A stretch of 64,000 nucleotides of DNA from Lacihabitans soyangensis. GTDB lineage: Bacteria; Bacteroidota; Bacteroidia; Cytophagales; Spirosomataceae. Below, in pieces: positions 12,112 through 54,289 of this stretch. The notes under the pieces are model-generated. The model did no database searches. It saw only the letters and a list, made by a program, of their open reading frames with translations, and was not told the origin of the DNA. Position numbers and translations under genes: made by a program. Where the stretch lies: NCBI RefSeq assembly GCF_024343775.1, contig NZ_RJUF01000006.1:1-64000 (forward strand). The letters run 5' to 3'. Each line of letters starts with the position of its first letter. Position 1 is the stretch's first letter.

Positions 12112-13452
12112 ATGAAAAAACTAATATTGTTATTCTTTTTGTTTTCTACTGGCTTGTCAGCACAAAAATGGACAAGCCTCTTTGATGGTAAAACCCTGAA
12201 AGGTTGGACCCAAAGAGGTGGTAAAGCAGTTTATAAAGTTGAAAATGGCCAGATTGTAGGTCAGACTGTTAGCGATACCCCAAACTCATTTCTTTGTACA
12301 GATAAAGATTACGGTGATTTTATTCTTGAACTAGATCTCAAACTCGACGATGAAATGAATGGCGGAGTTCAGTTTCGAAGCTTGTCTAAACCAGATTATC
12401 AAAACGGAAGAGTACATGGGTACCAAATGGAGGTGGATCCATCTACAAGAGCCTGGTCAGGTGGTATTTATGACGAAGGTCGCAGAGATTGGTTATATAA
12501 CTTAAACCACAATCCAGCCGGCCAAAAAGCATTTGTTAAACTTGGTTGGAACAAATACCGTATCGAGGCCATTGGTAATATACTAAGAACATTTATAAAC
12601 GGCATACCTACAGCACATGTTATTGACGACATGACCGCCAAAGGGTTTATAGCCCTTCAAGTCCATTCTATATATGCAGCCATGAAACCCGGTATGACTA
12701 TCCGCTGGAAAAACATCAGAATTCAGACTGAAAATCTAAAGCCAAGTCCTTTGGATGAATGCCCAGTAGTTAATCTTCTGCCAAATAATATTTCAGAACA
12801 AGAAAAAGCTCAAGGCTACAAATTACTTTTTAATGGTCAAAATTTTGACGGTTGGAAAAATGGAAGTAGCACGGCAGCACCAGATTCTCGTTGGAAAATA
12901 GAAAATGGTATTTTGGCCATAACTGCCAATACTGACAAAAGTCCTGGGGTTGATTTAATTTCAGAACAGAAATATGGAGCCTTCGAACTTCAGTTTGACT
13001 TTAAACTGACCGATGCTGCAAATTCTGGCGTAAAATACTTCGTCGAAATGCTTGGTGAAGAAGGAAAGAAATCACCGCTTGGTCTTGAGTATCAGGTATT
13101 AGATGACGAAAAACATCCGGATGCTAAACAAGGGGTGGTAGGTAATCGTACAATTGCCAGTTTGTATGACCTCATTCCTTCGGATAAATTAGACAAGCGT
13201 TTTCAAAAGAAAATAGGAGACTGGAACCAAGCACGAGTGGTAGTAATGCCAAATAATACAGTACAACATTGGTTAAATGGATTCAAAGTTCTTGAATATC
13301 AGCGAAATAGCAATATTTTTAAGGCACTTGTCGCGAGAAGTAAATATGCCAAAATTGAGGGTTTTGGATCAGGAGAAAAGGGCCACATTTTGTTGCAAGA
13401 TCATAGCGATAATGTGTTTTTCAAAAATGTAAAAATCCGAGAAATCAAGTAA
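12112..13452 (+). CDS. Secreted protein with two DUF1080 (3-keto-disaccharide hydrolase) domains
   Basis: 446 residues from the ATG at 12112, with signal peptide ending LSAQ. Two concanavalin-like DUF1080 domains are visible: one opens with WTSLFDGKTLKGWTQRGG (about residues 18-205), the second with YKLLFNGQNFDGWKNGSS (about 235-445). Both carry the family pattern G-(A/D)-(F)-(I/E)-L-(E/Q)-(L/F)-D-(L/F)-K-L, and NGGVQFRS or NSGVKYFVE. The second domain has VLDDEKHPDAKQG, shared with the single-domain protein at 27220-27918. Family members hydrolyse or eliminate 3-keto-glycosides made by Gfo/Idh/MocA enzymes, so this is the best clue to the locus chemistry. A duplicated domain in one chain is less common than single-domain forms. 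Confidence 0.92.
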   Translation: MKKLILLFFLFSTGLSAQKWTSLFDGKTLKGWTQRGGKAVYKVENGQIVGQTVSDTPNSFLCTDKDYGDFILELDLKLDDEMNGGVQFRSLSKPDYQNGRVHGYQMEVDPSTRAWSGGIYDEGRRDWLYNLNHNPAGQKAFVKLGWNKYRIEAIGNILRTFINGIPTAHVIDDMTAKGFIALQVHSIYAAMKPGMTIRWKNIRIQTENLKPSPLDECPVVNLLPNNISEQEKAQGYKLLFNGQNFDGWKNGSSTAAPDSRWKIENGILAITANTDKSPGVDLISEQKYGAFELQFDFKLTDAANSGVKYFVEMLGEEGKKSPLGLEYQVLDDEKHPDAKQGVVGNRTIASLYDLIPSDKLDKRFQKKIGDWNQARVVVMPNNTVQHWLNGFKVLEYQRNSNIFKALVARSKYAKIEGFGSGEKGHILLQDHSDNVFFKNVKIREIK

Positions 13453-13512
13453 AGCTTTTTAAAACGCATTCTTTAATTCAAATTTTCAGTTAGCTAACAA
13501 TTCTGGTAATTT

Positions 13513-15537
13513 ATGAAAAAGACAATTTTTGTTTCTCTTTTTGCGATAAATCTGGTTTTTGCACAAAAACCTTCCCAACCTATTTTGGGCAGTAAAAATG
13601 GGAAGCTAATAAAATCAGGAAGTCTAGAGTTTAAAGACTTAAACAAAAACGGTACACTCGACAAGTACGAGGATTGGCGTTTGCCTGTTGATGTTAGGGT
13701 GAAAGACCTGCTTTCAAAGATGACCATCGAAGAAAAAGTAGGTTTCATGCTTATAAGTACCACCAGAATGGCCAACGATGGCGGCTTTGGTCCATCGGCT
13801 AATCCGAATGCCCCAATATCAAGCGGTTTCAACGAGGAGGATTTGGTACAAAATGTCAATATGTTTACTCGTAAACCACTGTCTGAGCCGAATATGTCTG
13901 CTTCAGGAACCACCAAAGCCGTTACAGAAAGACAGCTCAGGCATTTTATATTGAGAGCAAATACTTCGGCCAAAACAATGGCAGAATGGTCAAATAACTT
14001 GCAAGCACTTTGCGAATCCACAAGATTGGGTATTCCAGCAATTGTGGCTTCCAATCCAAGAAATCACATCACTACCGATGCCGCAGTGGGCTTGAGTGTA
14101 GGAGCTACGGCATTTTCAAAATGGCCCGGAGAACTCGGTATGGCTGCCATGCGTGATTTCAAACTTACCAGAGAGTTTGCAGAAATTGCCGCAAAAGAAT
14201 GGACTGCAGTTGGTTTGCGAAAAGGATATATGTACATGGTTGACTTGGCTACCGAACCCCGCTGGAACCGCACCGAGGGAACCTTCGGAGAAGATGCAGA
14301 TCTTTCTTCAGCCATGATTCGCGAGATAGTTTTAGGTTTTCAAGGAAATAAGTTGGGCAAAAATTCTGTAGCGATGACCACCAAACATTTCCCCGGCGGA
14401 GGCCCACAGGAAGGTGGACAAGACTCCCATTTTGACTGGGGAAAGTTTGCCCATTATCCGGGTGGAAATTTCAATGAACACGTGAAACCTTTCATTGCAG
14501 CCATAAATGCAGGTACTTCTTCTATAATGCCGTACTATTCAGCACCGAAAGGCAAGGAATTTGAGGAAGTTGGTTTCTCGTTCAATAAGGCCATTATTGA
14601 TGATTTGTTGCGTAAAAAGTTAGGTTTTAAAGGCATTATAAACTCTGATACGGGCCCCATAGAAATGATGCCTTGGGGAGTAGAATCTCTAACTATCGAG
14701 CAGCGATATGTGAAAGCCATAGAAGCTGGAGTGGATATTTTTTCAGGAGCGGCTGATCCAACGGTATTGCTCAACACCGTAAAAAAAGGTTTGGTAAAAG
14801 AAAGTAGAATCAACGAATCTGTAAGTCGATTGCTCAAAGAAAAATTTGAATTGGGTTTGTTTGAAAATCCTTTTGTGGATGTCGAGAAAGCTGAAAAAAT
14901 AGTTGGAAACGAAGAGTTCCAGCAAAAAGGCGATTTGGCATTACGTAAGTCAATCGTATTGTTGAGAAATGATGAGAAACTGTTACCCATTACAAAGAAA
15001 ACAAAGGTTTACTTTGAATATTATAGAGAAGAAGGTGGAGGAAGAGGGCCTCAAGCCCAAGCTCCAAAGTCACCAATAAAAGTCCTGAAACCAGAAACGA
15101 AAGCGGACAACATTGAGTTCGTTTCTACAAAAGAGGAGGCTGATGTGGTTCTCTTGTGGCTTTTTCCAACCACAGGTGGCTTATTCAGTTCTGGAGGAAA
15201 ACCTATAGAGTTGAGCCTTTCAAAAAACAAAGTTGATGTGACCCATGTAAATGAATTAATCAATAGCAAACCGACTGTTGTGGTGGTAAATTACACCAAT
15301 CCTTGGGTTATTGATGAGATAGATAGGGGAAAAACCGCCACTGTATTGGCTACTTTTGGTACTTCCGTCGATGCTTTGATTGATGTAATATCAGGTAGAT
15401 TTAACCCAACGGGAAAGATGCCTTTTGCAACACCAAGTTCGGAAAAGGCTGTCTCTGAAAACAAGTCTGACTTACCTGGAAGTAAGGAAAATCCTGGATA
15501 TGCCTTATTTAATTTCGGCCAAGGATTGAGTTATTGA
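13513..15537 (+). CDS. Secreted glycoside hydrolase family 3 enzyme
   Basis: 674 residues, signal peptide ending VFAQ. The N-terminal TIM barrel contains the conserved KHFPGGGPQEGGQDSH and the nucleophile motif NSDTGP, with Asp379 as predicted nucleophile (SDxG as in beta-glucosidases). The second alpha/beta sandwich begins near LRKSIVLLRNDEKLLP. The usual C-terminal fibronectin III domain of 750-850-residue GH3 enzymes is absent; the protein ends soon after NFGQGLSY. Likely a beta-glucosidase or beta-xylosidase acting in the periplasm on the material imported by SusCD. A retaining hydrolase beside 3-keto chemistry gives two routes for cleavage. Confidence 0.93.
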   Translation: MKKTIFVSLFAINLVFAQKPSQPILGSKNGKLIKSGSLEFKDLNKNGTLDKYEDWRLPVDVRVKDLLSKMTIEEKVGFMLISTTRMANDGGFGPSANPNAPISSGFNEEDLVQNVNMFTRKPLSEPNMSASGTTKAVTERQLRHFILRANTSAKTMAEWSNNLQALCESTRLGIPAIVASNPRNHITTDAAVGLSVGATAFSKWPGELGMAAMRDFKLTREFAEIAAKEWTAVGLRKGYMYMVDLATEPRWNRTEGTFGEDADLSSAMIREIVLGFQGNKLGKNSVAMTTKHFPGGGPQEGGQDSHFDWGKFAHYPGGNFNEHVKPFIAAINAGTSSIMPYYSAPKGKEFEEVGFSFNKAIIDDLLRKKLGFKGIINSDTGPIEMMPWGVESLTIEQRYVKAIEAGVDIFSGAADPTVLLNTVKKGLVKESRINESVSRLLKEKFELGLFENPFVDVEKAEKIVGNEEFQQKGDLALRKSIVLLRNDEKLLPITKKTKVYFEYYREEGGGRGPQAQAPKSPIKVLKPETKADNIEFVSTKEEADVVLLWLFPTTGGLFSSGGKPIELSLSKNKVDVTHVNELINSKPTVVVVNYTNPWVIDEIDRGKTATVLATFGTSVDALIDVISGRFNPTGKMPFATPSSEKAVSENKSDLPGSKENPGYALFNFGQGLSY

Positions 15538-44254: not shown

Positions 44255-47200
44255 TCAGTATTCTATTCCAAAATAAAAATTCCGTGATTTAGCCACTTTT
44301 TCATTGGCATCGTATTCTATAACCTTTCCGTGATAGTAACCCTGTAGATAGTGTTCTTCAAGCATAAGTTTGCCCGTTTCGGTGTAGCTATATGATGGAC
44401 CTTCGTGTTCGTCTTCTTTTTGGAAATATCGATTTCGGATTTTACCGTTTACATAAAATACTTTTTGCTCGCCATGGTACATGCCATTTACGAAGTTATA
44501 TTCAGCACTCAGATTTCCATTCATATAATAACGTTTCAAGTTACCCATACGTTGGTTGTTTTTGTAGCTGGCTTGATAGCTCATTTTGCCGTTAGGATAA
44601 TAAGCTTTGATGTCAAACGTACCGTTTTTGGTATTTACTACGGGTAACCAATTGGCGTTTTTATCTTGGTAAGAGTATCCTACAATGTGGCCTTGGACAT
44701 AGATTATTTTATAGGCAGGAGTTTTGCCATCCTCACCAAAATGTATAAGTTCACCATTTTTTTCATCTTTTTTTAATGGTGTTAGCGTTTCAAGGGCTCC
44801 GTTGTGATAATACCATCGTGACTCGCCATCTGCTTCACCTTCAATAGTTTTACCCTCATACTCTAGCTTACCGTTGTCAAAGTATCTCTTATCGTAGCCA
44901 TCCTGTAGGCCGTTTTTGTATTCAATTTCGTTTTTAAGTTTTCCATTGTGATGGTATGACATGTACTTGCCGTCCATCATGTCGTTGTTATATGCAACTT
45001 CAGCATATTTATTACCATCTTTTGACCAATAGTATGTTTCTTTCCCTTGTTTCACACCATTCACTAAAGTGTATTCTTTGTATGGCTTTTTGTTTAAACT
45101 CAATATGGTGACTTTGCCGTTTGCCTTTGGTAAATCTATTGTATTAAACACCTGCCCAAGGGTATCGTATTGAGTGGTTTTGGTTACTATGTTGTCTTTT
45201 GTGAAATATTCATAGAGCTTTACACCGGTTGGAGCGTAGTTTTCTGCATAACCTGTAGCTATGCCGTTTTGAAAGAACATGACGTCCTTAATTACGCCAT
45301 TGTTGTAATAATATTTCCATTGGCCTTCTGCTAGGTCATTTACGTACCAACCTTCGTAAGATTTTTGGCCATTGTCATGATAATATACAAAGTAACCATC
45401 TCGTTGGTTGTCTTTGAAAAAACCTTCCATTTTTAGCTGTCCGAGTTCTGTGAATTCTTTTGAAATGCCATGTAAAAGGCCATCTTTATATTGCCTTTCG
45501 GCGAACAGTGCCCCACTCATGTAATATTCCTTCATACTACCGTTATTGCCAAATTTGTTCATGCTTCCCTCTTGCCTCTTTTGGCCAGCTGGGTAGTAAG
45601 TCTCATAGACCAATTGGTCATTTTTGCGGGTGTTTTCTTTGATAATATTCCCTTTTTTGTCGAAAATTTTTGTGTATTTCAACAATTTCTTTTCGTAAAA
45701 TTCTTCGGCAAAAATCAACCCATCTTCATCAAAATATTTATGAAGACCTACAGGTTCTCCATCGGTAGAATTACCCTCACTGGCCAATTTACCGTTTGAA
45801 TGGAACGTGGTTTGCTTGCCTTCTTTTTTACTGTCTTTATAGAAAGACTGGGCAATTTTTTTACCATTGATATCGAAGTAGAGCCATTCGCCTTGCAATA
45901 AGTTATTTGACATTTTACCTGCCACTTTTGGCTTGCCGTTGAAGAAATAGCTTTTATAATCACCCTCCTCAAGGCCTTTGCTATAGGTACTTTCCGATGA
46001 AAGTTGGCCATTATAATAGTATTGACGACTTGGCCCATCTAATTCATTATTTTTATAGATAGCATCGGCTGCCAGCTGGCCATTTTGGTGGTAATCAAAA
46101 AATTTGCCTTCTTTTTGTCCTTTTTCAAAAACCTTAACATATTTCTTACCGCCACCTAAATAATAATAGATAAACTCCCCTTGTTCCAAATCATTTTTGT
46201 ATTGTCCTTCTACCTCTAGGTTGCCATTCGGGAAATAATCTTTGAACTTTACGGTAGAGTCTTTCGGGTTGAAAACACTAATTTGACTTAGATATCCTTC
46301 TTCAGTATAGTACTTCCACTCACCTGTTTTTTGACCGTTATCGTCATACAAGCCCTTGCTCATTAGGGATTTATTTGGGTGAAAAAATTCGGTATAACCC
46401 ATTAATGTTTTGGTACTTTCATCATATTTTGTTGTAATAGCCTGAAGGTTGTGGTTATTGTATGTACCAACGAAGTATTTGGCAGTTTTTCCGTTGAAAT
46501 CCAACACCTTTAATTTGTCATGTCCAGAAAAACTATTATCTACCAGTTCTTTAGCTTTCTTTATACCTGCATCGTTTTTTTCGTATCTTTTTTTTGCTTT
46601 TTCATTTACAGAGCTCAACCAATAGTGGGTAAAATCATTAAAAAGTCCATTTTCCCATATCCTTTTATAAAACAAAACATAGTTTTTCATCCAGAAGTCT
46701 TCACTTTCTTCTGCGTATTCTAGCTTTTCTAAAAGTGCTTGGCATTGTCTAACAACTTTGTAGTCAAGTTCAGATTTTAGCTTGAAGTTCTTATTGAAAG
46801 TAACCTGCGAGTTCAGCACCAAATCCGTTGTCTGGAAATCTTCGGCAGGTTGAATCAGCAAGGAATCGTTGTTAAAAGCAACATTGGTAGACAAATATTT
46901 TTCGAGTTCAATAATCACATTGTCGGCATTGTCGTCTTGTGGCTCAAGCGTTAAATAGGTCAGTATCGAAAGGGTACCCCTGGTAGGTTGGTTTTGTATT
47001 AAACACAGATGGCCAAGCATTTTATGGCTCAGTGCATTAAAGAAATTGATGTTTATTGATTTTTGAAAACATTCTACGGCTTCATTTATTTTCCATTGGT
47101 TCAAGTATGTCATGCCCATGCTGGTCAGTAGGCTATAATCGTACGGGTATTTTTCAAGACCTTTTTTATAAGTTTCTATGGCCAATTCTTTTAGGCCAGA

Positions 47201-47527
47201 GTCGTCATAGGAGGCAGCCAGAAATAAAAAAAATGAGGCTTCATATTTAGAATTGAGATTCAAACCAAGCTTACAAACTTCTTGGGTTTCTTTATGCTTT
47301 GCAGACATCAACAAAGTGAGGGACTTGTGATAAATTGATAGAGCATAATTGGTGTCACTTTTTGAAATTTTATCTAGCTCTAGGAGGGCCTGGTCTTTTT
47401 TGTCTTCGTTTCGAAGGCTTATGCTTTTTTTAATTAACTCTCCCGAATTTACTAATATTATTTGGGGATTTTGGGCATTGGCTGCTGTGCTTAAACATAC
47501 CAAAAGCAGTATAACGAGGATACGCAT
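44255..47527 (-). CDS. Giant exported TPR plus MORN-like repeat protein
   Basis: 1090 residues with signal peptide ending AANAQ. Residues about 30-220 are TPR-like helices (DQALLELDKISKS, LAIETYKKGLEKYPYDY, EAVECFQKSININ). From about 350 to the end there are roughly 28 units of about 23 residues with the pattern Y-x-x-N-G-x-L-x-x-E-x-x-Y-x-x-G-x-x-x-G, the YwqK-type MORN variant (YHHNGKLKNEIEYKNGLQDG, YYMNGNLSAEYNFVNGMYHG). No catalytic domain is seen; it looks like an elongated binding scaffold. It is first in an operon with two DUF3857/transglutaminase-like proteins. Confidence 0.88.
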   Translation of the reverse strand: MRILVILLLVCLSTAANAQNPQIILVNSGELIKKSISLRNEDKKDQALLELDKISKSDTNYALSIYHKSLTLLMSAKHKETQEVCKLGLNLNSKYEASFFLFLAASYDDSGLKELAIETYKKGLEKYPYDYSLLTSMGMTYLNQWKINEAVECFQKSININFFNALSHKMLGHLCLIQNQPTRGTLSILTYLTLEPQDDNADNVIIELEKYLSTNVAFNNDSLLIQPAEDFQTTDLVLNSQVTFNKNFKLKSELDYKVVRQCQALLEKLEYAEESEDFWMKNYVLFYKRIWENGLFNDFTHYWLSSVNEKAKKRYEKNDAGIKKAKELVDNSFSGHDKLKVLDFNGKTAKYFVGTYNNHNLQAITTKYDESTKTLMGYTEFFHPNKSLMSKGLYDDNGQKTGEWKYYTEEGYLSQISVFNPKDSTVKFKDYFPNGNLEVEGQYKNDLEQGEFIYYYLGGGKKYVKVFEKGQKEGKFFDYHQNGQLAADAIYKNNELDGPSRQYYYNGQLSSESTYSKGLEEGDYKSYFFNGKPKVAGKMSNNLLQGEWLYFDINGKKIAQSFYKDSKKEGKQTTFHSNGKLASEGNSTDGEPVGLHKYFDEDGLIFAEEFYEKKLLKYTKIFDKKGNIIKENTRKNDQLVYETYYPAGQKRQEGSMNKFGNNGSMKEYYMSGALFAERQYKDGLLHGISKEFTELGQLKMEGFFKDNQRDGYFVYYHDNGQKSYEGWYVNDLAEGQWKYYYNNGVIKDVMFFQNGIATGYAENYAPTGVKLYEYFTKDNIVTKTTQYDTLGQVFNTIDLPKANGKVTILSLNKKPYKEYTLVNGVKQGKETYYWSKDGNKYAEVAYNNDMMDGKYMSYHHNGKLKNEIEYKNGLQDGYDKRYFDNGKLEYEGKTIEGEADGESRWYYHNGALETLTPLKKDEKNGELIHFGEDGKTPAYKIIYVQGHIVGYSYQDKNANWLPVVNTKNGTFDIKAYYPNGKMSYQASYKNNQRMGNLKRYYMNGNLSAEYNFVNGMYHGEQKVFYVNGKIRNRYFQKEDEHEGPSYSYTETGKLMLEEHYLQGYYHGKVIEYDANEKVAKSRNFYFGIEY

Positions 47528-47625
47528 TGAAGTGGATGGTTTTTATGTGATTATTAGAAAATATTTATGGCAAAAATTAAACCAAAATATTGAAATACCA
47601 ATTTAAAAAATAATTTTAGTTGGTT

Positions 47626-47808
47626 ATGGCTTATTATAAAGTGGAGGTTAAAATAAAAGGCAGAGAAAATCAGGCTATTAAAATTGTAATAGATGAGTCA
47701 AGTTTATCAAATAAGGTAAGAGTTTTTTACAATGCACCAAATCGTCCCTTTACCAAGGTTTGTGCAAGGAGGGTAAATTTTATAAAGTCTGGCACCCGAA
47801 CCCTTTGA
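47626..47808 (+). CDS. Possible small protein, convergent with and overlapping crtB
   Basis: 60 residues from the ATG at 47626: MAYYKVEVKIKGRENQAIK followed by VIDESS and VRVFYN. The first 33 residues look like a real beta-strand-rich small protein, but the last 27 are antisense to the end of crtB (47727 onwards). Its 3' end may be the eroded tail of a once longer gene. No promoter match is exact (TAATTTTAG upstream). Tentative. Confidence 0.3.
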   Translation: MAYYKVEVKIKGRENQAIKIVIDESSLSNKVRVFYNAPNRPFTKVCARRVNFIKSGTRTL

Positions 47809-48563
47809 GTTTGGATTTTGGCTGCTGAGGTTTTTTTGATTCTTTTGAATAATTTTAGATAATACACATAGGCCAAGTATACACCTGAACGTGCTCCAAC
47901 GGGTAGGTTTAGTATTCCCCTCAGTGCGTTGTCGAAGTCTATCTGTATATCTTTTTCTATTTCCCTTTTGGCGTAAGCCGAGAAATTGCTCATGTCTATT
48001 TGTGGGAAATATACACGTCCACGCTCCTGATAGTCACTTTTGAGGTCTCTCAAGAAATTGACTTTCTGGAATGCAGCACCAAGGCTTCTGGCATCGGTTT
48101 TTAGTTTTTCGTAAAGGCTTTGATCTCCTTCCACGAACACTTTCAGGCACATGAGGCCTACTACTTCGGCCGAGCCGTAAATGTATTCTTTGTATTTGCT
48201 GTCGTCGTAAACTATTTGACCCAAGTCCATTTCCATGCTGTATAAAAAAGCATCAATGAGCTCAAGGTCTATTTTAAACTCATGAACTACTTTCTGAAAA
48301 GAATGTAGGATGGGATTGAGACTAATACCCGTTTCTATGGCCTCGTAGGTGTCGGCTTTAAATTTTTCGAGAAGGTATTTTTTGTCAAACTGATGAAAGG
48401 TGTCCACAATTTCATCTGCAAAACGAACGAATCCATATATACCATAAATAGGTTCGTGGAAACGCTTGGTAAGTGTTTTGATACCCAATGAAAAGGACGT
48501 GCTATAAAGCTCCGTTACGAGCTTACTACATCCGAAGGTTGATTTTTCATACAAATTAAACAT
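47727..48563 (-). CDS. crtB: Phytoene/squalene synthase family protein (carotenoid)
   Basis: 278 residues from the ATG at 48563; the in-frame TTG at 48569 is not needed. Both Asp-rich prenyl-diphosphate motifs are present: FADEIVDTF near residue 50 and NFLRDLKSDYQERGRVYFP near 170, plus YCxxV-type region GSAEVVGLMCLKVF. It condenses two geranylgeranyl diphosphates to phytoene at the membrane. It lies 14 bp after crtI and is last of the sigma-crtI-crtB operon. Confidence 0.93.
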   Translation of the reverse strand: MFNLYEKSTFGCSKLVTELYSTSFSLGIKTLTKRFHEPIYGIYGFVRFADEIVDTFHQFDKKYLLEKFKADTYEAIETGISLNPILHSFQKVVHEFKIDLELIDAFLYSMEMDLGQIVYDDSKYKEYIYGSAEVVGLMCLKVFVEGDQSLYEKLKTDARSLGAAFQKVNFLRDLKSDYQERGRVYFPQIDMSNFSAYAKREIEKDIQIDFDNALRGILNLPVGARSGVYLAYVYYLKLFKRIKKTSAAKIQTQRVRVPDFIKFTLLAQTLVKGRFGAL

Positions 48564-48577
48564 TCTCAATCAGGGTT

Positions 48578-50038
48578 TTAATGATTTTTAGCTATATAAT
48601 CACCTACCACCAATCCCGAGATCAACGCAGGAGGAACTCCTGGCCCTGGGACCGACAATTGGCCTGTATAGTACATATTTTTTAAGTTCTTGTTTTTTAG
48701 TGCGGGTTTCAGAAATGCCGTCTGCAACAATGTGTTAGCCAAACCGTAGGCATTTCCTTTAAAGGCATGATAATCAGCTTTAAAGTCACTTACAGCGTAA
48801 CTTTTTTTGTAAACTACATGATTTCTGATCTCATGACCTACGTATTTTTCAAGTCTTTCGATCATTATATCGAAGTACTTTTCGCGGGTTGACTCGTCAT
48901 CTTCCAAATCAGGAGCTATAGGAATAAGCAAAAACAAATTCTCATGGCCTTCCGGTGCTACAGATGGGTCGGTTTTTGACGGTGCCGACACGTAAAAAAG
49001 AGGTTTCGATGGCCATTTAGGGTTTTTGTAGATTTCATCGGCGTGAAGATTAAAGTCTTCATCAAAAAACAAATTATGATGTTCTAACCTATCCACTTTT
49101 CTGTCAACTCCTATATAGTACAGCAACGACGAAGGAGCCATCAATCGTTTATCCCAATATTTTTTACTGTAGTTACGGCTGCCGTTAAGAAGACCCTCGG
49201 TATGTTCGTAATCGGCACCACTTACCACAATATCGGCATAGTAAACAGCATCGAGAGTACGTATTTTTTTGACATTACCATTTTCCGATACTATCTCCTT
49301 AACCTCTTGATTATTAATGAATTTTACTCCCTTTTCTTCGGCTAATTTTAGCATGCCTTTCACTATTTCGTGCATTCCGCCCATGGGATACCACGTTCCC
49401 AAGGCCATTTCGGCGTAGTTCATGAGGCTGTAAAGAGCAGGGGTGTCGTTTGGAGTTGCTCCTAAGAACAAAACAGGAAACTCCATGATTTTCAGTAAAT
49501 CTTCGTTTTTGAAGAATTTTCTGAGGTGTTTTCCAAAAGAGGCAAAAAGATCAAGACTAATAGCTTTGGATAAAAGTCGAAAATCAAAAAATTCACTGAC
49601 AGAAAGCGACGGCTTCCAGACAAACTCACCCATTCCTGTAGTGTATTTGTATTTGGCCTCTTCAAAAAAGGCATCGAAACTAGGACCACAGCCAGGCTCG
49701 AGTTTTTCGAAAAGGGCTTTGAGCTCTGTTAGATTTGCGGGCAGATCAACTTCTTTTCCGTTTGTTAGTATGACTTTATACGATGGCTCGAGTCGGACAA
49801 GTTTATAATAGTCAGATGGTTTTTTGCCAAACTCGCCAAAATACCGTTCAAAAACATCTGGCATCCAGTACCAACTCGGACCCATGTCGAATTTAAAGCC
49901 AGCCTCACTAAATACTCTTGCTCGGCCACCGAAATCGGCGTTTTTTTCCAAAACGGTCACCTCAAAACCCAAACTTGCGAGTTTTGTTGCGGCAGAAATT
50001 CCTGCAAAACCTGAACCGATTACGATGACTTTTTTCAA
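48578..50038 (-). CDS. crtI: Phytoene desaturase (CrtI type)
   Basis: 486 residues. The FAD-binding motif VIVIGSGFAGISAATKL begins at residue 4, followed by EKNADFGGRARVF and DMGPSWYWMPDVF, with the C-terminal CrtI signature YYTGQLSVPGPGVPPALISGLVVGDYIA. The start codon is TTG (50038-50036): no in-frame ATG or GTG lies upstream before the previous gene, the next ATG is past the FAD motif, and a purine-rich GAGAGAAAGA precedes it. Converts phytoene to neurosporene or lycopene. Gaps of 14 bp on both sides show a tight operon. Confidence 0.95.
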   Translation of the reverse strand: MKKVIVIGSGFAGISAATKLASLGFEVTVLEKNADFGGRARVFSEAGFKFDMGPSWYWMPDVFERYFGEFGKKPSDYYKLVRLEPSYKVILTNGKEVDLPANLTELKALFEKLEPGCGPSFDAFFEEAKYKYTTGMGEFVWKPSLSVSEFFDFRLLSKAISLDLFASFGKHLRKFFKNEDLLKIMEFPVLFLGATPNDTPALYSLMNYAEMALGTWYPMGGMHEIVKGMLKLAEEKGVKFINNQEVKEIVSENGNVKKIRTLDAVYYADIVVSGADYEHTEGLLNGSRNYSKKYWDKRLMAPSSLLYYIGVDRKVDRLEHHNLFFDEDFNLHADEIYKNPKWPSKPLFYVSAPSKTDPSVAPEGHENLFLLIPIAPDLEDDESTREKYFDIMIERLEKYVGHEIRNHVVYKKSYAVSDFKADYHAFKGNAYGLANTLLQTAFLKPALKNKNLKNMYYTGQLSVPGPGVPPALISGLVVGDYIAKNH

Positions 50039-50052
50039 ATCTTTCTCTCTTT

Positions 50053-50571
50053 TTAAACAGTTTGCGTATTAGAATAAATTTTTAGGCGGTCTTTCAACTC
50101 TTTTCTTGCCAAATGTATTCTATTTTTCACAGTCCCAATCGGAATCGCCACTTTTTCAGCAATTTCGTGATATTTAAAACCATTAAAGTACATCATGAAC
50201 GGTTCTTTGTAGGTATCGTCCAATTTTTCAAGTGCTTTTGTGATGTCCTCATTAGCAAAGTTACCATAAGCATCATTCTGAACAATACTGTCTGACGAAT
50301 TTATATAATGTAAATTGTCGCTAGTATCAATAATGGTGTTCTTACGCATCATCCTTTGATAATTCGTGATGAAGGTGTTTTTCATAATCGTAAACAACCA
50401 AGCCTTCAAATTGGTACCATCAGCGTATTTGTCTTTATTTAAAAACGCTTTCACCAATGTATCTTGTACCAAATCATTGGCATCGTCGTAGTTTTTCGTT
50501 AACCTCATCGCAAAAGGCTTAAGCGTTTTGGTGTTGGTTTGTAAAGCATAATTAAATTCTATCGCAGTCAT
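50053..50571 (-). CDS. Sigma-70 family (ECF-type) RNA polymerase sigma factor
   Basis: 172 residues. Region 2 shows YDDANDLVQDTLVKAFLN and LKAWLFTIMKNTFITNYQR, region 4 shows ALEKLDDTYKEPFMMYFNGF then YHEIAEKVAIPIGTVKNRIHLARKELKD. It is the first gene of the carotenoid operon, so it probably controls pigment or photo-oxidative-stress genes and possibly itself. No anti-sigma gene is adjacent. Three TTGTTTAA-N16-TTAAACAA dyads lie upstream, the nearest half-site 15 bp before its ATG. Confidence 0.92.
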   Translation of the reverse strand: MTAIEFNYALQTNTKTLKPFAMRLTKNYDDANDLVQDTLVKAFLNKDKYADGTNLKAWLFTIMKNTFITNYQRMMRKNTIIDTSDNLHYINSSDSIVQNDAYGNFANEDITKALEKLDDTYKEPFMMYFNGFKYHEIAEKVAIPIGTVKNRIHLARKELKDRLKIYSNTQTV

Positions 50572-50585
50572 TTGATTGTTTTAAT

Positions 50586-50617
50586 TTGTTTAAGCAAATG
50601 TTAAAAAGATTAAACAA
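50586..50617. promoter_or_regulatory. Operator-like dyad 1 upstream of the carotenoid operon
   Basis: TTGTTTAA (50586-50593) and TTAAACAA (50610-50617), both perfect, with a 16-bp spacer. The spacer holds a non-canonical -7-like TAACATTTG on the minus strand (50603-50595). Confidence 0.65.
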
Positions 50618-50628
50618 AAGAAAAAATT

Positions 50629-50660
50629 ATGTTTAACTTATATTTAAAAATATTAAACAA
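50629..50660. promoter_or_regulatory. Operator-like dyad 2 upstream of the carotenoid operon
   Basis: ATGTTTAA (50629-50636, one mismatch to the consensus) and TTAAACAA (50653-50660), again with a 16-bp spacer. Confidence 0.6.
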
Positions 50661-50703
50661 AACTTACTATGTTTTAATTTATTCTTTAATAAGTACAATT
50701 ATC

Positions 50704-50735
50704 TTGTTTAATTTTTTTCTTTTATCGTTAAACAA
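50704..50735. promoter_or_regulatory. Operator-like dyad 3 between the carotenoid operon and priA
   Basis: TTGTTTAA (50704-50711) and TTAAACAA (50728-50735), both perfect, 16-bp spacer. It is 111 bp upstream of the priA start and could serve either direction. Confidence 0.6.
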
Positions 50736-50846
50736 ACCTACGTATTACTCATCTTTTTGGATGTCCGGTGATATTTGTTTTACGTTGCAATCCATATAAT
50801 TTCCAATATTTATAGTGTTTTAAAGGCTCAAATTTTAAATTTGTAT

Positions 50847-53348
50847 ATGATAAGTGAGAGTAATGAGTTTTCAGAGGTAGAACAGACATTTTTTGTGGAG
50901 GTGGTATTGCCTGTACCCATACCACAATATTTTACCTATCGTCTTTCTCGAGAAATGAGTCAATTGGCCAAAGTGGGCTCTCGTGTAGTGGTAGAATTCG
51001 GCAAGTCGAGAGTTTTGACGGCGGTCATTGTGAAAATTCATAACACACCACCACCAAAGTATCAGGCCAAATATGTGCAGGAATTGCTTGATATTGAGCC
51101 TGTTGTCACAGCCTCACAACTCTGGCTATTTGAGTGGGTAGCCGAGTACTACATGTGTCATGTGGGCGAGGTAATGAATATTGCGTTGCCGGCCGGACTT
51201 AAAATAAGTAGTCAGTCCAGAATTCAGTATAATCCTGATTTTGCACATCCCGAGTTACTGTCTGAACAAGAAACCCAACTGATGGAGGTGCTTCTGAAGG
51301 AGGAATCTCTAAGCTACGACGAGGTCGGGCGTTTTCTAGACCAAAAAGACATCAACAAAACCATAAAAGAGCTGGTGGCCAAGCATGCCATTATACTTTT
51401 TGAAGAGGTAAAAGATAAATATCGCCCGAAGATTGTCAAGAAAATACGCTTGAAGCGAGTTTTTGAAGGCACAGAGGAGATTTTGGCCTTGATAGAAAAG
51501 CTTGAAAAAACCACCAAACAGCAGGAGGTGTTGTTGGAATATCTAGGCCATGTGCCTATTAATGAGCTGCATTATAAAAACAAGGAGGGTTTGGCGAAAA
51601 GTACGCTCAAGGCTGGTGATATTTCGGAATCGTCTCTCAAAACTCTTTTGGACAAAGGTATTTTTGAGGAATTCGAGATTGTGGTTTCAAGGTTTGACGG
51701 TGAAGACCTTGGCTCTCAGGCTCAAATGCAACTTTCGGAGCCACAACAAAAAGCATCTGACCAGATAATGGACTCTTTCACCCAAAACGAAGTGGTGCTT
51801 TTTCATGGCATCACAGGTTCGGGCAAGACAGAAATTTACATAGACCTCATACAAAAAGTACTGGATTCAGGCTCACAGGTATTGTTTTTATTGCCAGAAA
51901 TTGCCCTTACTACTCAAATAGTGAACAGACTCCGGGTGGTTTTTGGAGATGCCATGGGCGTTTATCATTCTAAGTTTTCTGACAACGAACGCGTGGAGGT
52001 TTGGAAAGGTGTTTTGGACGGTAAGTTTCAGTTTGTGGTGGGTGTACGGTCGGCTATTTTTCTGCCCTTTACCAATTTGGGACTCATTATAGTAGATGAA
52101 GAACACGAGTCATCCTACAAACAGTTTGACCCCGCTCCCCGCTATCATGCTCGTGATGTGGCCATTATGTTGGCTCTGAAGGTCCGGTCTAAAGTACTAC
52201 TTGGTTCGGCTACGCCATCGATAGAGTCTTTTTATCAAGCCAAAAACAAAAAATATGGTCTGGTAAGCCTAAATGTAAGATACGGTGATGCTCAGCTGCC
52301 TGATATCAGGTTGGTAGATATGAAAAAGGAGCGGAAGGACAAAACCCTTGTGAAGGAATTCAGTTCGGAGCTGTTGGCGGAAATGGCTCAAAACTTGGCC
52401 AATAAACAGCAGACCATTATATTTTTGAACAGACGGGGTTATGCTCCGTATCTCAATTGCCAGGAGTGCAATTGGATAGGGCATTGCGACCAATGTGCGG
52501 TTTCGCTCACTTATCACCTGGCAGAGAAGACTTTGGTTTGTCATTATTGTGGACACAAGGAATCAGTGCCTAAAACATGCCCCGACTGCGGTTCTACCAA
52601 GGTCAAAGCCATGGGAGTTGGTACTGAAAAAATAGAGGAAGATCTGTATGAAATATTCCCAGAGGCCAAAATATTACGGATGGATTTGGACACCACAAGA
52701 TCAAAAAATGCCTATCAGAATATTATCGGGGAGTTTGAAAAAGGCGAGGTGGATGTTTTGGTGGGTACACAGATGGTATCCAAAGGACTTGATTTTGACC
52801 ATGTGAGCTTGGTTGGAATTTATAATGCCGACAAGATGATTCACTTTCCTGACTTTCGAGCGGCCGAGCGGGCTTTTCAGTTGATTACCCAAGTAAGTGG
52901 CCGGGCAGGTAGGAGGGACCAAAAAGGCAGGGTGTTGATACAGACAGGAAGCCCGCAAAACCGAATTTTGCAGTTTGTACTTCAGAACGATTACGTGGGT
53001 TTTTATGAATCCGAGGTTATTGATAGAGAGGGGTATAATTATCCGCCATTTTCGAGAATTATTGAGATTACGGTTAAGGACGTTGACCAGACTTTGGCCC
53101 ATCAAGCTGCTGCCAGGCTTGCTCAGGCTTTGGAGAATCAACTGGGTAAAACCCGTGTTATGGGTCCTGAAAAAGCTTTGGTAGAAAGAATCAGGAACAA
53201 ATATCTTTTTGAGGTTTGGCTTAAACTAGAGAAGGACAAGATGAATATTCAGGCCACAAAAGCGTTTCTACAAAAAGAAATAGTAAATTTGATTACTGAA
53301 AAAAAATTCAAATCTGTGCAGGTAGTGGTAAATGTGGATGCCGTTTAA
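50847..53348 (+). CDS. priA: Primosomal protein N', replication-restart helicase
   Basis: 833 residues from the ATG at 50847, directly before the conserved FFVEVVLPVPIPQYFTYRL. Upstream codons to 50775 are non-conserved. Helicase motifs: Walker A GITGSGKTEIY (Lys327), DEEH (417-420), GSATPSIESF, LNRRGYAP, GTQMVSKGLDFDHV, QVSGRAGR. The zinc module has eight Cys as CQEC, CDQC, CHYC and CPDC. It reloads the replisome at stalled forks. A TAAATTTG element at 50836-50843 sits just four bases before the ATG, so if that promoter is used the mRNA is leaderless or the start is later. Confidence 0.96.
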   Translation: MISESNEFSEVEQTFFVEVVLPVPIPQYFTYRLSREMSQLAKVGSRVVVEFGKSRVLTAVIVKIHNTPPPKYQAKYVQELLDIEPVVTASQLWLFEWVAEYYMCHVGEVMNIALPAGLKISSQSRIQYNPDFAHPELLSEQETQLMEVLLKEESLSYDEVGRFLDQKDINKTIKELVAKHAIILFEEVKDKYRPKIVKKIRLKRVFEGTEEILALIEKLEKTTKQQEVLLEYLGHVPINELHYKNKEGLAKSTLKAGDISESSLKTLLDKGIFEEFEIVVSRFDGEDLGSQAQMQLSEPQQKASDQIMDSFTQNEVVLFHGITGSGKTEIYIDLIQKVLDSGSQVLFLLPEIALTTQIVNRLRVVFGDAMGVYHSKFSDNERVEVWKGVLDGKFQFVVGVRSAIFLPFTNLGLIIVDEEHESSYKQFDPAPRYHARDVAIMLALKVRSKVLLGSATPSIESFYQAKNKKYGLVSLNVRYGDAQLPDIRLVDMKKERKDKTLVKEFSSELLAEMAQNLANKQQTIIFLNRRGYAPYLNCQECNWIGHCDQCAVSLTYHLAEKTLVCHYCGHKESVPKTCPDCGSTKVKAMGVGTEKIEEDLYEIFPEAKILRMDLDTTRSKNAYQNIIGEFEKGEVDVLVGTQMVSKGLDFDHVSLVGIYNADKMIHFPDFRAAERAFQLITQVSGRAGRRDQKGRVLIQTGSPQNRILQFVLQNDYVGFYESEVIDREGYNYPPFSRIIEITVKDVDQTLAHQAAARLAQALENQLGKTRVMGPEKALVERIRNKYLFEVWLKLEKDKMNIQATKAFLQKEIVNLITEKKFKSVQVVVNVDAV

Positions 53349-53362
53349 ATCGTTAGAAAATT

Positions 53363-53725
53363 ATGAGCATAAAGTCGTCGATATCGGATTATTTCAAAAT
53401 AGATGAGCTAAAAGATAACCTGATTAAACTTATTGAGGCCAAGTTTGAACTCAAGAAATTGGAGGTTCAAGAAAAAATTGAGGGCTTGATTTCGGGTATC
53501 GTGGTTAAAATTGTGATGGGCGTTTTTCTGGTGATGGTATTTGTGCTTCTCAATATATTGTTGGCCGCCACTATCAATCATTTTACGCATACTTTTTGGC
53601 TTGGTTATGTCATACTTATAGCTGTATATTTGATTTTATGGTGGATTTTCAAAACACAAAAATCTAAGGTGGAGGCTATCATAAAAACTAAAGTTGGAGA
53701 AGCCTTGGATGAGGTTGGGGTATAA
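53363..53725 (+). CDS. Holin-X-like (DUF1469) small membrane protein
   Basis: 120 residues: an N-terminal amphipathic, Lys/Glu-rich helix (about 10-45), two membrane segments (about 47-70 and 77-95) and a charged C-terminal helix, the layout of phage-holin-family/DUF1469 proteins. Despite the family name it is a common chromosomal Bacteroidota protein; no phage genes are nearby. It starts 14 bp after priA and may be co-transcribed. Function unknown. Confidence 0.8.
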   Translation: MSIKSSISDYFKIDELKDNLIKLIEAKFELKKLEVQEKIEGLISGIVVKIVMGVFLVMVFVLLNILLAATINHFTHTFWLGYVILIAVYLILWWIFKTQKSKVEAIIKTKVGEALDEVGV

Positions 53726-53839
53726 TTAATAGTCCTAAGGCTGTATCGGTGAAAATAAACCTACGAATTCCAACTTGTTAAAGTGTTCATTTACAATATA
53801 TTACAGACCTAATCAAATAAAAAATAATTATATCGAAAA

Positions 53840-54289
53840 ATGAAAAGATTACTAATCCTGAGTTTTCTAGTGTTACCATTTCAGGTAACAAAAGCCCAAA
53901 ATGCAGAGAAAGAAACTGCAGCCATCAAGGCGGTGCTGACTGACTTTTTTGAGACTTTCACTCACCCAGACATGAAGTATTTTGATAGAAATTGTAGCCC
54001 TGATTTCCAACTGTTGGAGGTGGGTGAAGTATGGGAACGCAAGGAAATCCAGGCTTACGTTGATAAGATGACCGCCAAGCCCTTAACGTTTGAACGTACC
54101 AATCAGTTTGATTTTATTAAAGTCAAATTTTACAAAAATATGGCTTGGGTAAGCTATTACAACACTGCCACTATTCGATCTCTACAAGATAATTCTGTAC
54201 GGAAAGTAGAATGGCTAGAAAGCATAATTCTTGAAAAAGTAAAAGGCCGATGGGTTTTGCAGCAAATGCACAGTTCATTTAAAAAATAA
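53840..54289 (+). CDS. Secreted NTF2-like (DUF4440/SnoaL-like) protein
   Basis: 149 residues with signal peptide ending VTKAQ. NTF2-like cone fold pattern: ETAAIKAVLTDFFETF, MKYFDRNCSPDFQLLEVGEVW, a central strand MAWVSYYNTATI and the end GRWVLQQMHSSFKK. Related proteins are ketosteroid-isomerase-like enzymes or ligand binders; no catalytic residues can be assigned. Stand-alone gene followed by a bidirectional terminator. Confidence 0.82.
   Translation: MKRLLILSFLVLPFQVTKAQNAEKETAAIKAVLTDFFETFTHPDMKYFDRNCSPDFQLLEVGEVWERKEIQAYVDKMTAKPLTFERTNQFDFIKVKFYKNMAWVSYYNTATIRSLQDNSVRKVEWLESIILEKVKGRWVLQQMHSSFKK

Follow-up and report, generated by a model that had tools for sequence, protein, structure and literature searches.

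The region upstream of a carotenoid operon in Lacihabitans soyangensis raises the question of which protein controls it, and by what signal. Three inverted pairs of short half-sites lie there, between the divergently transcribed priA gene and a minus-strand operon encoding an ECF-type sigma factor, CrtI and CrtB. The motif, TTGTTTAA-N16-TTAAACAA, has 16 bp between its arms in all three copies, and these were recovered at 50586, 50629 and 50704, where a preliminary description of this DNA had placed three dyads of equal internal spacing in the window (the whole stretch of 64,000 nucleotides analysed here). The nearest dyad ends 14 bp from the sigma ATG and the farthest 112 bp from the priA ATG, in a region with the following features:

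47727..48569, minus strand: crtB, phytoene synthase family (Pfam SQS_PSY; no NCBIfam cut-off reached)
48578..50038, minus strand: crtI, phytoene desaturase (NCBIfam CrtID equivalog, 727.5 bits against a cut-off of 640)
50053..50571, minus strand: ECF-type sigma factor, first gene of the operon (Pfam Sigma70_r2 and Sigma70_r4_2; NCBIfam sigma70-ECF above cut-off)
50586..50617, minus strand: dyad 1, proximal and perfect (0 mismatches), with arm A at 50610-50617 and arm B at 50586-50593 in the direction of the sigma gene
50629..50660, minus strand: dyad 2, one mismatch (first base A), 43 bp upstream of dyad 1
50704..50735, minus strand: dyad 3, distal and perfect (0 mismatches), ending 132 bp before the sigma ATG
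50847..53348, plus strand: priA, the divergent neighbour, its start taken as the first ATG in frame

Taken singly, the half-site is an ordinary word, found 12 times in the window against 10.6 expected, and it was discarded as evidence. Three dyads with up to three mismatches are ordinary too (2.55 expected in the window), but three with at most one mismatch are unusual. Across the whole genome (G000, 5.65 Mb in 198 contigs) the three crt-operon dyads are the sole sites at 0–1 mismatch; the dyads anticipated at further genes of this genome did not appear outside the crt operon at this stringency. Ten further dyads with two mismatches are scattered over the genome. A reversed control pattern gave 21 sites at up to two mismatches against 13 for the real pattern, so that the two-mismatch sites were rejected as noise and the signal in this genome is the cluster at the crt operon, whereas at 0–1 mismatch the control gave one site against three. 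With TTGTYYAA arms and spacers of 16–18 the genome yields just dyads 1 and 3, the two perfect copies, and the control none. The signal is the pairing of half-sites together with their fixed spacing. No Rfam family reached its gathering score within positions 47000-54000.

The arrangement is conserved among relatives. In a family set of 61 genomes, G000 included, the sigma gene was found in 53, and 52 of the 53 orthologous sigma-crtI-crtB promoters carry at least one dyad with up to two mismatches and a spacer of 16–18. Perfect pairs occur at a spacer of 16 in 21 promoters, 17 in five and 18 in two. All the remaining spacers tried in the family crt promoters, over a range of 0 to 30, gave no perfect pair, and neither did three rounds of dinucleotide shuffles. 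At 0–1 mismatch the 61 genomes hold 133 forward sites against 38 for the reversed control, and some single dyads, chiefly inside reading frames among the matches listed, are probably due to chance. In a second set, of named genomes, a dyad lies at 55 of 80 sigma loci; the two sets share genomes (Flectobacillus longus and a Siphonobacter among them), so that the counts of 52/53 and 55/80 are not independent. The named loci divide according to the relatedness of the sigma factor, with a dyad at 48 of the 50 loci where sigma identity is at least 54% and at seven of the 30 below that value. Dyads were seen at one of 14 Pedobacter sigma loci and at none of six in Mucilaginibacter. The expectation that orthologous crt promoters would carry the dyads thus holds within the family and in close relatives, but not at distant sigma homologues: the dyad is general in the Cytophagales examined and missing from most of the Sphingobacteriaceae examined. 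Pedobacter genomes show the sigma-crtI gene order without dyads.

Where a promoter holds more than one dyad, certain distances recur. Separations of 43–45 bp are the commonest (23 of 93), and 204–207 bp accounts for another 17, a second dyad standing that far above the near one at, for example, L146, L149, L153, L155, L159 and L160; such recurrence suggests looping or cooperative binding. Helical phasing was also considered (resultant 0.44 for an 11-bp period, 0.31 for 10 and 0.20 for 10.5, computed on 93 non-independent distances), and was dropped once the 43–45 and 204–207 bp clusters were seen to account for the resultant. The promoter scans here and below cover distinct upstream regions of at least 200 bp for the crt/carH spacer scan and of at least 100 bp for rhodopsin, PTPS and photolyase genes.

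A multimeric regulator of MerR type responding to light or B12 had been proposed as the reader of these sites, and the genome offers one good candidate:

Contig C30 of G000, 13423-14331: carH, a MerR-B12 protein (PF13411, 63.8 bits, and PF02607, 34.9 bits, in one 316-aa frame)

Two MerR_1 and two B12-binding_2 matches were found in the genome, and this is the one protein that holds both domains, an N-terminal MerR helix-turn-helix and a C-terminal B12-binding helical cap, making a B12-dependent MerR-type protein the best candidate. It had been remarked that no such regulator gene is in the window, which is true of the window but misleading, since carH lies on contig C30 and its homologue adjoins the dyads in Algoriphagus, Marivirga and others. 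Its best match of solved structure is Thermus CarH (5c8d, E 1.3e-17). Residues W147, E157 and H158, in a W-x9-EH pattern which we take to cap the adenosyl group in the CarH pocket, align with the W, E and H of the Thermus protein and are kept in all 35 homologues compared, these being the distinct proteins, drawn from all the loci collected, that passed a length filter and aligned without breaks; the family search by itself had matches in 56 genomes. The histidine of ExHxxG, presumably the lower ligand, stands in GEYHEIG in the L. soyangensis protein; it is histidine in 33 of the 35 homologues and glutamine in two, and the final glycine position of the motif is G in 15 of 35 and S in 17. The NCBIfam CarH equivalog NF052513 was missed by far (94 bits against a cut-off of 400), and the protein is therefore a CarH homologue of a divergent clade. 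A further mark of the CarH/LitR family is an oligomer that depends on AdoCbl and is dismantled by light. The two homologues with glutamine for the lower-ligand histidine (L184 in G060, L188 in G020) are possibly B12-independent, like CarA; their genomes have no N16 dyad at 0–1 mismatch, and their sigma promoters carry an N17 dyad with one mismatch.

Gene order and co-occurrence tie this protein to the dyads. Within a 2.5-kb flank, carH stands upstream of the sigma gene on the same strand at 18 of the 80 named loci, mostly in Algoriphagus and Marivirga, and every one of these 18 has a dyad between carH and sigma. The order carH-dyad-crtI recurs in family f7 (probably flavobacteria), at L401, L408, L410, L411 and L415 among the loci L389-L417 inspected over 3 kb each, and in three genomes without the sigma gene at E 1e-40 (G021, G032, G051) the dyads lie, among the matches listed, at a carH-crtI-crtB operon. 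In a sample of 296 genomes from the phylum, with carH called at E 1e-20 or better, all 37 genomes with a perfect dyad fall among the 62 with carH, and none of the 234 carH-less genomes has one (Fisher p ~8e-31, the genomes not being phylogenetically independent). One genome, G261, lacks both, and the other sampled members of its genus (g46) have both. The association is incomplete in the other direction, 25 of the 62 carH genomes having no perfect N16 dyad. In the family set, G010 (88% complete) and G013 (82% complete) have dyads with no carH match. Last, arm B, TTAAACAA, includes TnnACA, the core of the published CarH half-site (PMC9304148).

These data also bear on the possibility that another, unlinked transcription factor binds the dyads and merely co-occurs with carH in this part of the Bacteroidota. 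Such a factor would accommodate the L. soyangensis carH, which is on another contig, unlinked to the crt operon and without a dyad of its own, as well as the family member G045, whose single perfect dyad is not accompanied by any carH match, and the inverted form of the dyads, unlike that of published CarH operators. It is nevertheless improbable, given the carH-dyad-sigma-crt and carH-dyad-crtI gene orders, the absence of perfect dyads from carH-less genomes in the phylum sample, the occurrence of a dyad ahead of the carH gene in 14 of 56 cases (spacer 16), and the CarH core within the arms.

If a CarH homologue is indeed the reader, the position of the near dyad should indicate what its binding does. 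The primary-sigma promoter of the Bacteroidota consists of a -7 element, TAnnTTTG, and a -33 element, TTTG. The former has a counterpart within dyad 1:

50595..50602, minus strand: putative -7 element AACATTTG inside dyad 1, matching five of the six specified bases of TAnnTTTG

Transcription is accordingly predicted to start within arm B of dyad 1. A -33 box at the expected distance was not found in the crt promoter of the window, and sigma-70 consensus promoters around the crt operon were at chance level. Among family promoters, 31 of 48 near crt dyads enclose the exact TAnnTTTG, against none of 15 rhodopsin dyads, one of 19 PTPS dyads and three of 36 far crt dyads. When one mismatch is allowed the word becomes common in all classes (38/48 near, 7/15 rhodopsin, 11/19 PTPS, 12/36 far crt), so that the exact word alone discriminates; TTTG or TTGG near the -33 distance accompanies 29 of the 48 near dyads. 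The nearest dyad had been described as bracketing the promoter and acting as a direct switch: the first part holds in relatives as well, and placement over the -7 box fits the second. A near crt dyad that covers both the -7 box and the predicted start site is in the position of a repressor.

The sign of control is less certain than the site. MerR proteins commonly activate, and in many promoters a far dyad lies ~205 bp upstream, both of which would suit a CarH that activates in light instead of repressing in the dark. The available portion of one report describes precisely this for Streptomyces, in which light makes LitR an activator of litS, a sigma gene (PMC12705666), and the sign of control here is for this reason not certain. 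Activation is still quite improbable at the crt operon, where the near dyad occupies the repressor position just described, and where the characterised AdoCbl-CarH proteins of Thermus, Bacillus and Myxococcus, described as dark repressors in the part of the review available (PMC8156234), provide the analogy; repression in the dark is suggested by these proteins together with the position of the operator.

The dyad is not confined to carotenoid operons among the relatives. It stands ahead of rhodopsin in 15 of 21 genes (21 of 27 matches being kept) and ahead of an operon of PTPS and folE in 19 of 30 (the best 30 of 62 folE matches). Among the matches listed, L080 and L417 have the gene of a retinal-forming dioxygenase next to a dyad, and in L060 a dyad is followed by rhodopsin and then by a gene of the lycopene cyclase family. 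No rhodopsin match was found in the L. soyangensis genome, and the dyad there thus serves the crt operon alone. Three loci of family f7 (L406, L413, L414) show a perfect dyad followed by a gene for a small protein (without a Pfam match in L406) and then by one for a short-chain dehydrogenase, and both genes are likely further members of the regulon. At L390 and L391 the dyad precedes a sigma homologue (47–48% identity) and then, in place of crtI, an HhH-GPD DNA-repair gene (tested at L390). Photolyase genes, at which dyads had likewise been expected, have one in a single case out of the 30 best-scoring loci of a longer list, and most of them carry instead a putative promoter for the crt operon's ECF sigma factor.

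That promoter emerged from motif discovery by gapped-word enumeration, in which thousands of word pairs were ranked and compared with shuffled sequences. The pair AACA-N17-GTT ranked first at photolyase genes, with 15 of 30 promoters against 0.75 in shuffles, and was also found in 18 of 30 PTPS promoters (1.3 in shuffles) and six of 21 rhodopsin promoters (0.55), where the top enumerated words came from a leader RNA and from the dyad itself, respectively. The L. soyangensis genome has the pair near the start of one of its three photolyases (contig C180, 47 bp) and ahead of PTPS-folE (contig C2, 97 bp). Its distribution follows that of the sigma gene: with photolyases below 40% identity and locus L282 excluded, AACA-N16-18-GTT lies at 24 of 29 orthologous photolyases in sigma-bearing genomes (1.9 of 29 in shuffles) and at none of seven in sigma-lacking ones. 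The motif is absent near the start of four photolyases (L290, L291, L293, L295) that match poorly and belong to sigma-bearing genomes. The ECF sigma factor of the crt operon is thus a probable second-tier regulator, one that probably reads the AACA-N16-18-GTT promoters of photolyase and PTPS-folE, an assignment resting on few sigma-lacking lineages (genera g20, g22, g30 and g32). A second regulatory tier acting through this factor is likely on these sequence comparisons.

At some targets the two motifs appear to be superimposed. A GTT follows arm B by 16–18 bp at eight of 15 rhodopsin and 12 of 19 PTPS dyads, against none of 48 near and one of 36 far crt dyads, while other three-base windows used as a control give 0–4; such GTT words also number eight over 17 carH dyads. 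An earlier candidate, a GTTA downstream of the rhodopsin and PTPS dyads taken as a -35 box, was dropped once the enumeration had yielded AACA-N17-GTT. Most simply, arm B would be used at rhodopsin and PTPS-folE by CarH and the sigma factor alike. Because arm B contains AACA, the recurring -35 word of the putative sigma promoters of photolyase and PTPS-folE, the arms might even be nothing but -35 elements through which the operon's sigma factor regulates itself, with no repressor site involved. This is very unlikely, since the inverted pairing at 16–18 bp is no promoter feature, dyads persist without the sigma gene in G021, G032 and G051 (among the matches listed), the near crt dyads hold a primary-sigma -7 box, and the GTT expected of such a promoter is practically absent after arm B at crt dyads, as the above counts show.

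The leader RNA mentioned above is a conserved structured element ahead of PTPS-folE, seen at L229-L258 and, in L. soyangensis, at L292 (contig C2, ~160.0 kb), where it takes a variant form shared with two congeners. It comprises a core GTGTTG, a 4-bp hairpin with the loop CAnnCTT, the word ACGAC and an outer closing stem. Over 24 distinct sequences, pairing holds in 87% of cells and both sides change in 11 of 13 pairs. The covariation score is 0.57, compared with 0.25 for shuffled and no more than 0.21 for slid versions, for a structure that was drawn from the same sequences. A pseudoknot was considered and dropped, as its loop letters vary. Rfam searches of five loci returned matches far below the gathering scores. 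The element is a candidate new cis-regulatory RNA, perhaps one that senses pterins.

Regulation of the divergent priA by the dyads can be dismissed as scarcely credible: dyad 3 does end 112 bp from its ATG, but in relatives the dyads track sigma-crtI-crtB or carH-crtI while the divergent gene changes, differing in most of them among the matches listed, which makes priA an unlikely target. At L071 this position is occupied by a TonB-dependent receptor gene with a CarboxypepD_reg_2 domain (the domain having been tested at that locus), and similar frames lie at L095, L107, L090 and L070; a receptor so placed could be under the same operator.

Altogether, the comparisons make it rather probable that the dyads are the operator of a B12-dependent repressor of CarH/LitR type, the protein encoded on contig C30, which would be released by light and would act together with a sigma tier. 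In the dark, AdoCbl-bound CarH would bind TTGTTTAA-N16-TTAAACAA over the -7 box and start site and thereby block transcription of sigma-crtI-crtB, stabilised by the upstream dyads either cooperatively or by looping. Light would break the Co-C bond and CarH would leave the dyads, allowing the carotenoid enzymes and the ECF sigma factor to be made; the latter would then read the AACA-N16-18-GTT promoters and turn on photolyase and PTPS-folE. Where relatives have dyads at rhodopsin and PTPS-folE, with arm B often doubling as the putative sigma -35 element, expression of these genes would require both release of CarH and the sigma factor. A more general proposal would recognise in the Bacteroidia a clade of B12 photoreceptors with an inverted-repeat operator of 24-bp offset and a two-tier light regulon, in which CarH gates crt, rhodopsin, retinal and PTPS-folE genes, photolyase and pterin genes are brought in by the sigma factor, and light acts through an AND gate at rhodopsin and PTPS-folE, where one dyad arm is also the sigma -35 element; we hold this broader proposal to be evenly balanced between right and wrong. 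The operator is conserved and searchable and the candidate photoreceptor can be named, so that direct testing is possible. If the proposal is true, the operators recognised by CarH proteins come in two very different architectures, and a compact light-gated promoter becomes available for the Bacteroidota.

The individual parts are of known kinds, and the operator architecture was not found described: in the open papers searched, most subscription journals lying outside these, there was no description of the inverted-repeat operator, its spread, or its coupling to rhodopsin, pterin and sigma promoters. As far as the available portions of the literature go, the protein shares with the CarH of Thermus thermophilus, Bacillus megaterium and the Myxococcales its MerR and B12-binding domains, the W and EH residues and the lower-ligand histidine, and in both cases the operator, here a putative one, overlaps a carotenoid promoter and the arm contains TnnACA, the start site here being a prediction from sequence. 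The published operators consist of three or four tandem 11-bp direct repeats, nnnnTnnACAn, in the text available to us (PMC8156234, PMC9304148), whereas those described here are inverted repeats with an offset of 24 bp, sometimes 25 or 26. In 53 crt promoters TnnACA forms a direct pair at 11 bp five times, a count at the background level of neighbouring distances. Convergent pairs in the same promoters reach 73 at 24 bp and 30 at 25 bp, and at 24 bp there are 18 in the rhodopsin and again 18 in the PTPS promoters. A peak of 43 direct TnnACA repeats at 21 bp in the crt promoters was read as reflecting the promoter TTTG beside arm B. Also unlike the known CarH systems, promoters here often carry at least two dyads, and the putative targets extend to rhodopsin, retinal and pterin genes.

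A likeness in operator form is found in CarA of Myxococcus xanthus, which was initially reported to have an operator of two inverted repeats, the -35 region being overlapped by one of them; later work, in the portion of the account available, suggests direct-repeat recognition, and the inverted repeats are not conserved in CarA relatives (PMC9304148). Within the Bacteroidota, the crt genes of Chryseobacterium lacus are likewise induced by light, and its authors, in the part of their paper seen, report no car/lit operon genes and propose a new regulator (PMC7064467). In overall logic the proposed scheme resembles LitR-LitS of Streptomyces coelicolor, where, according to the text available, a B12-dependent MerR photoreceptor controls a sigma gene heading a light regulon (PMC12705666). 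The two would differ in what the sigma factor does. In S. coelicolor, sigma-LitS transcribes from the crtE promoter in the same available account (PMC12705666), while here sigma and crt genes share an operon with a promoter of primary-sigma type, and a LitS-like role of the ECF sigma at the crt promoter fails, there being no sigma-type GTT after any of the 48 near crt dyads; its putative targets are instead photolyase and PTPS-folE.
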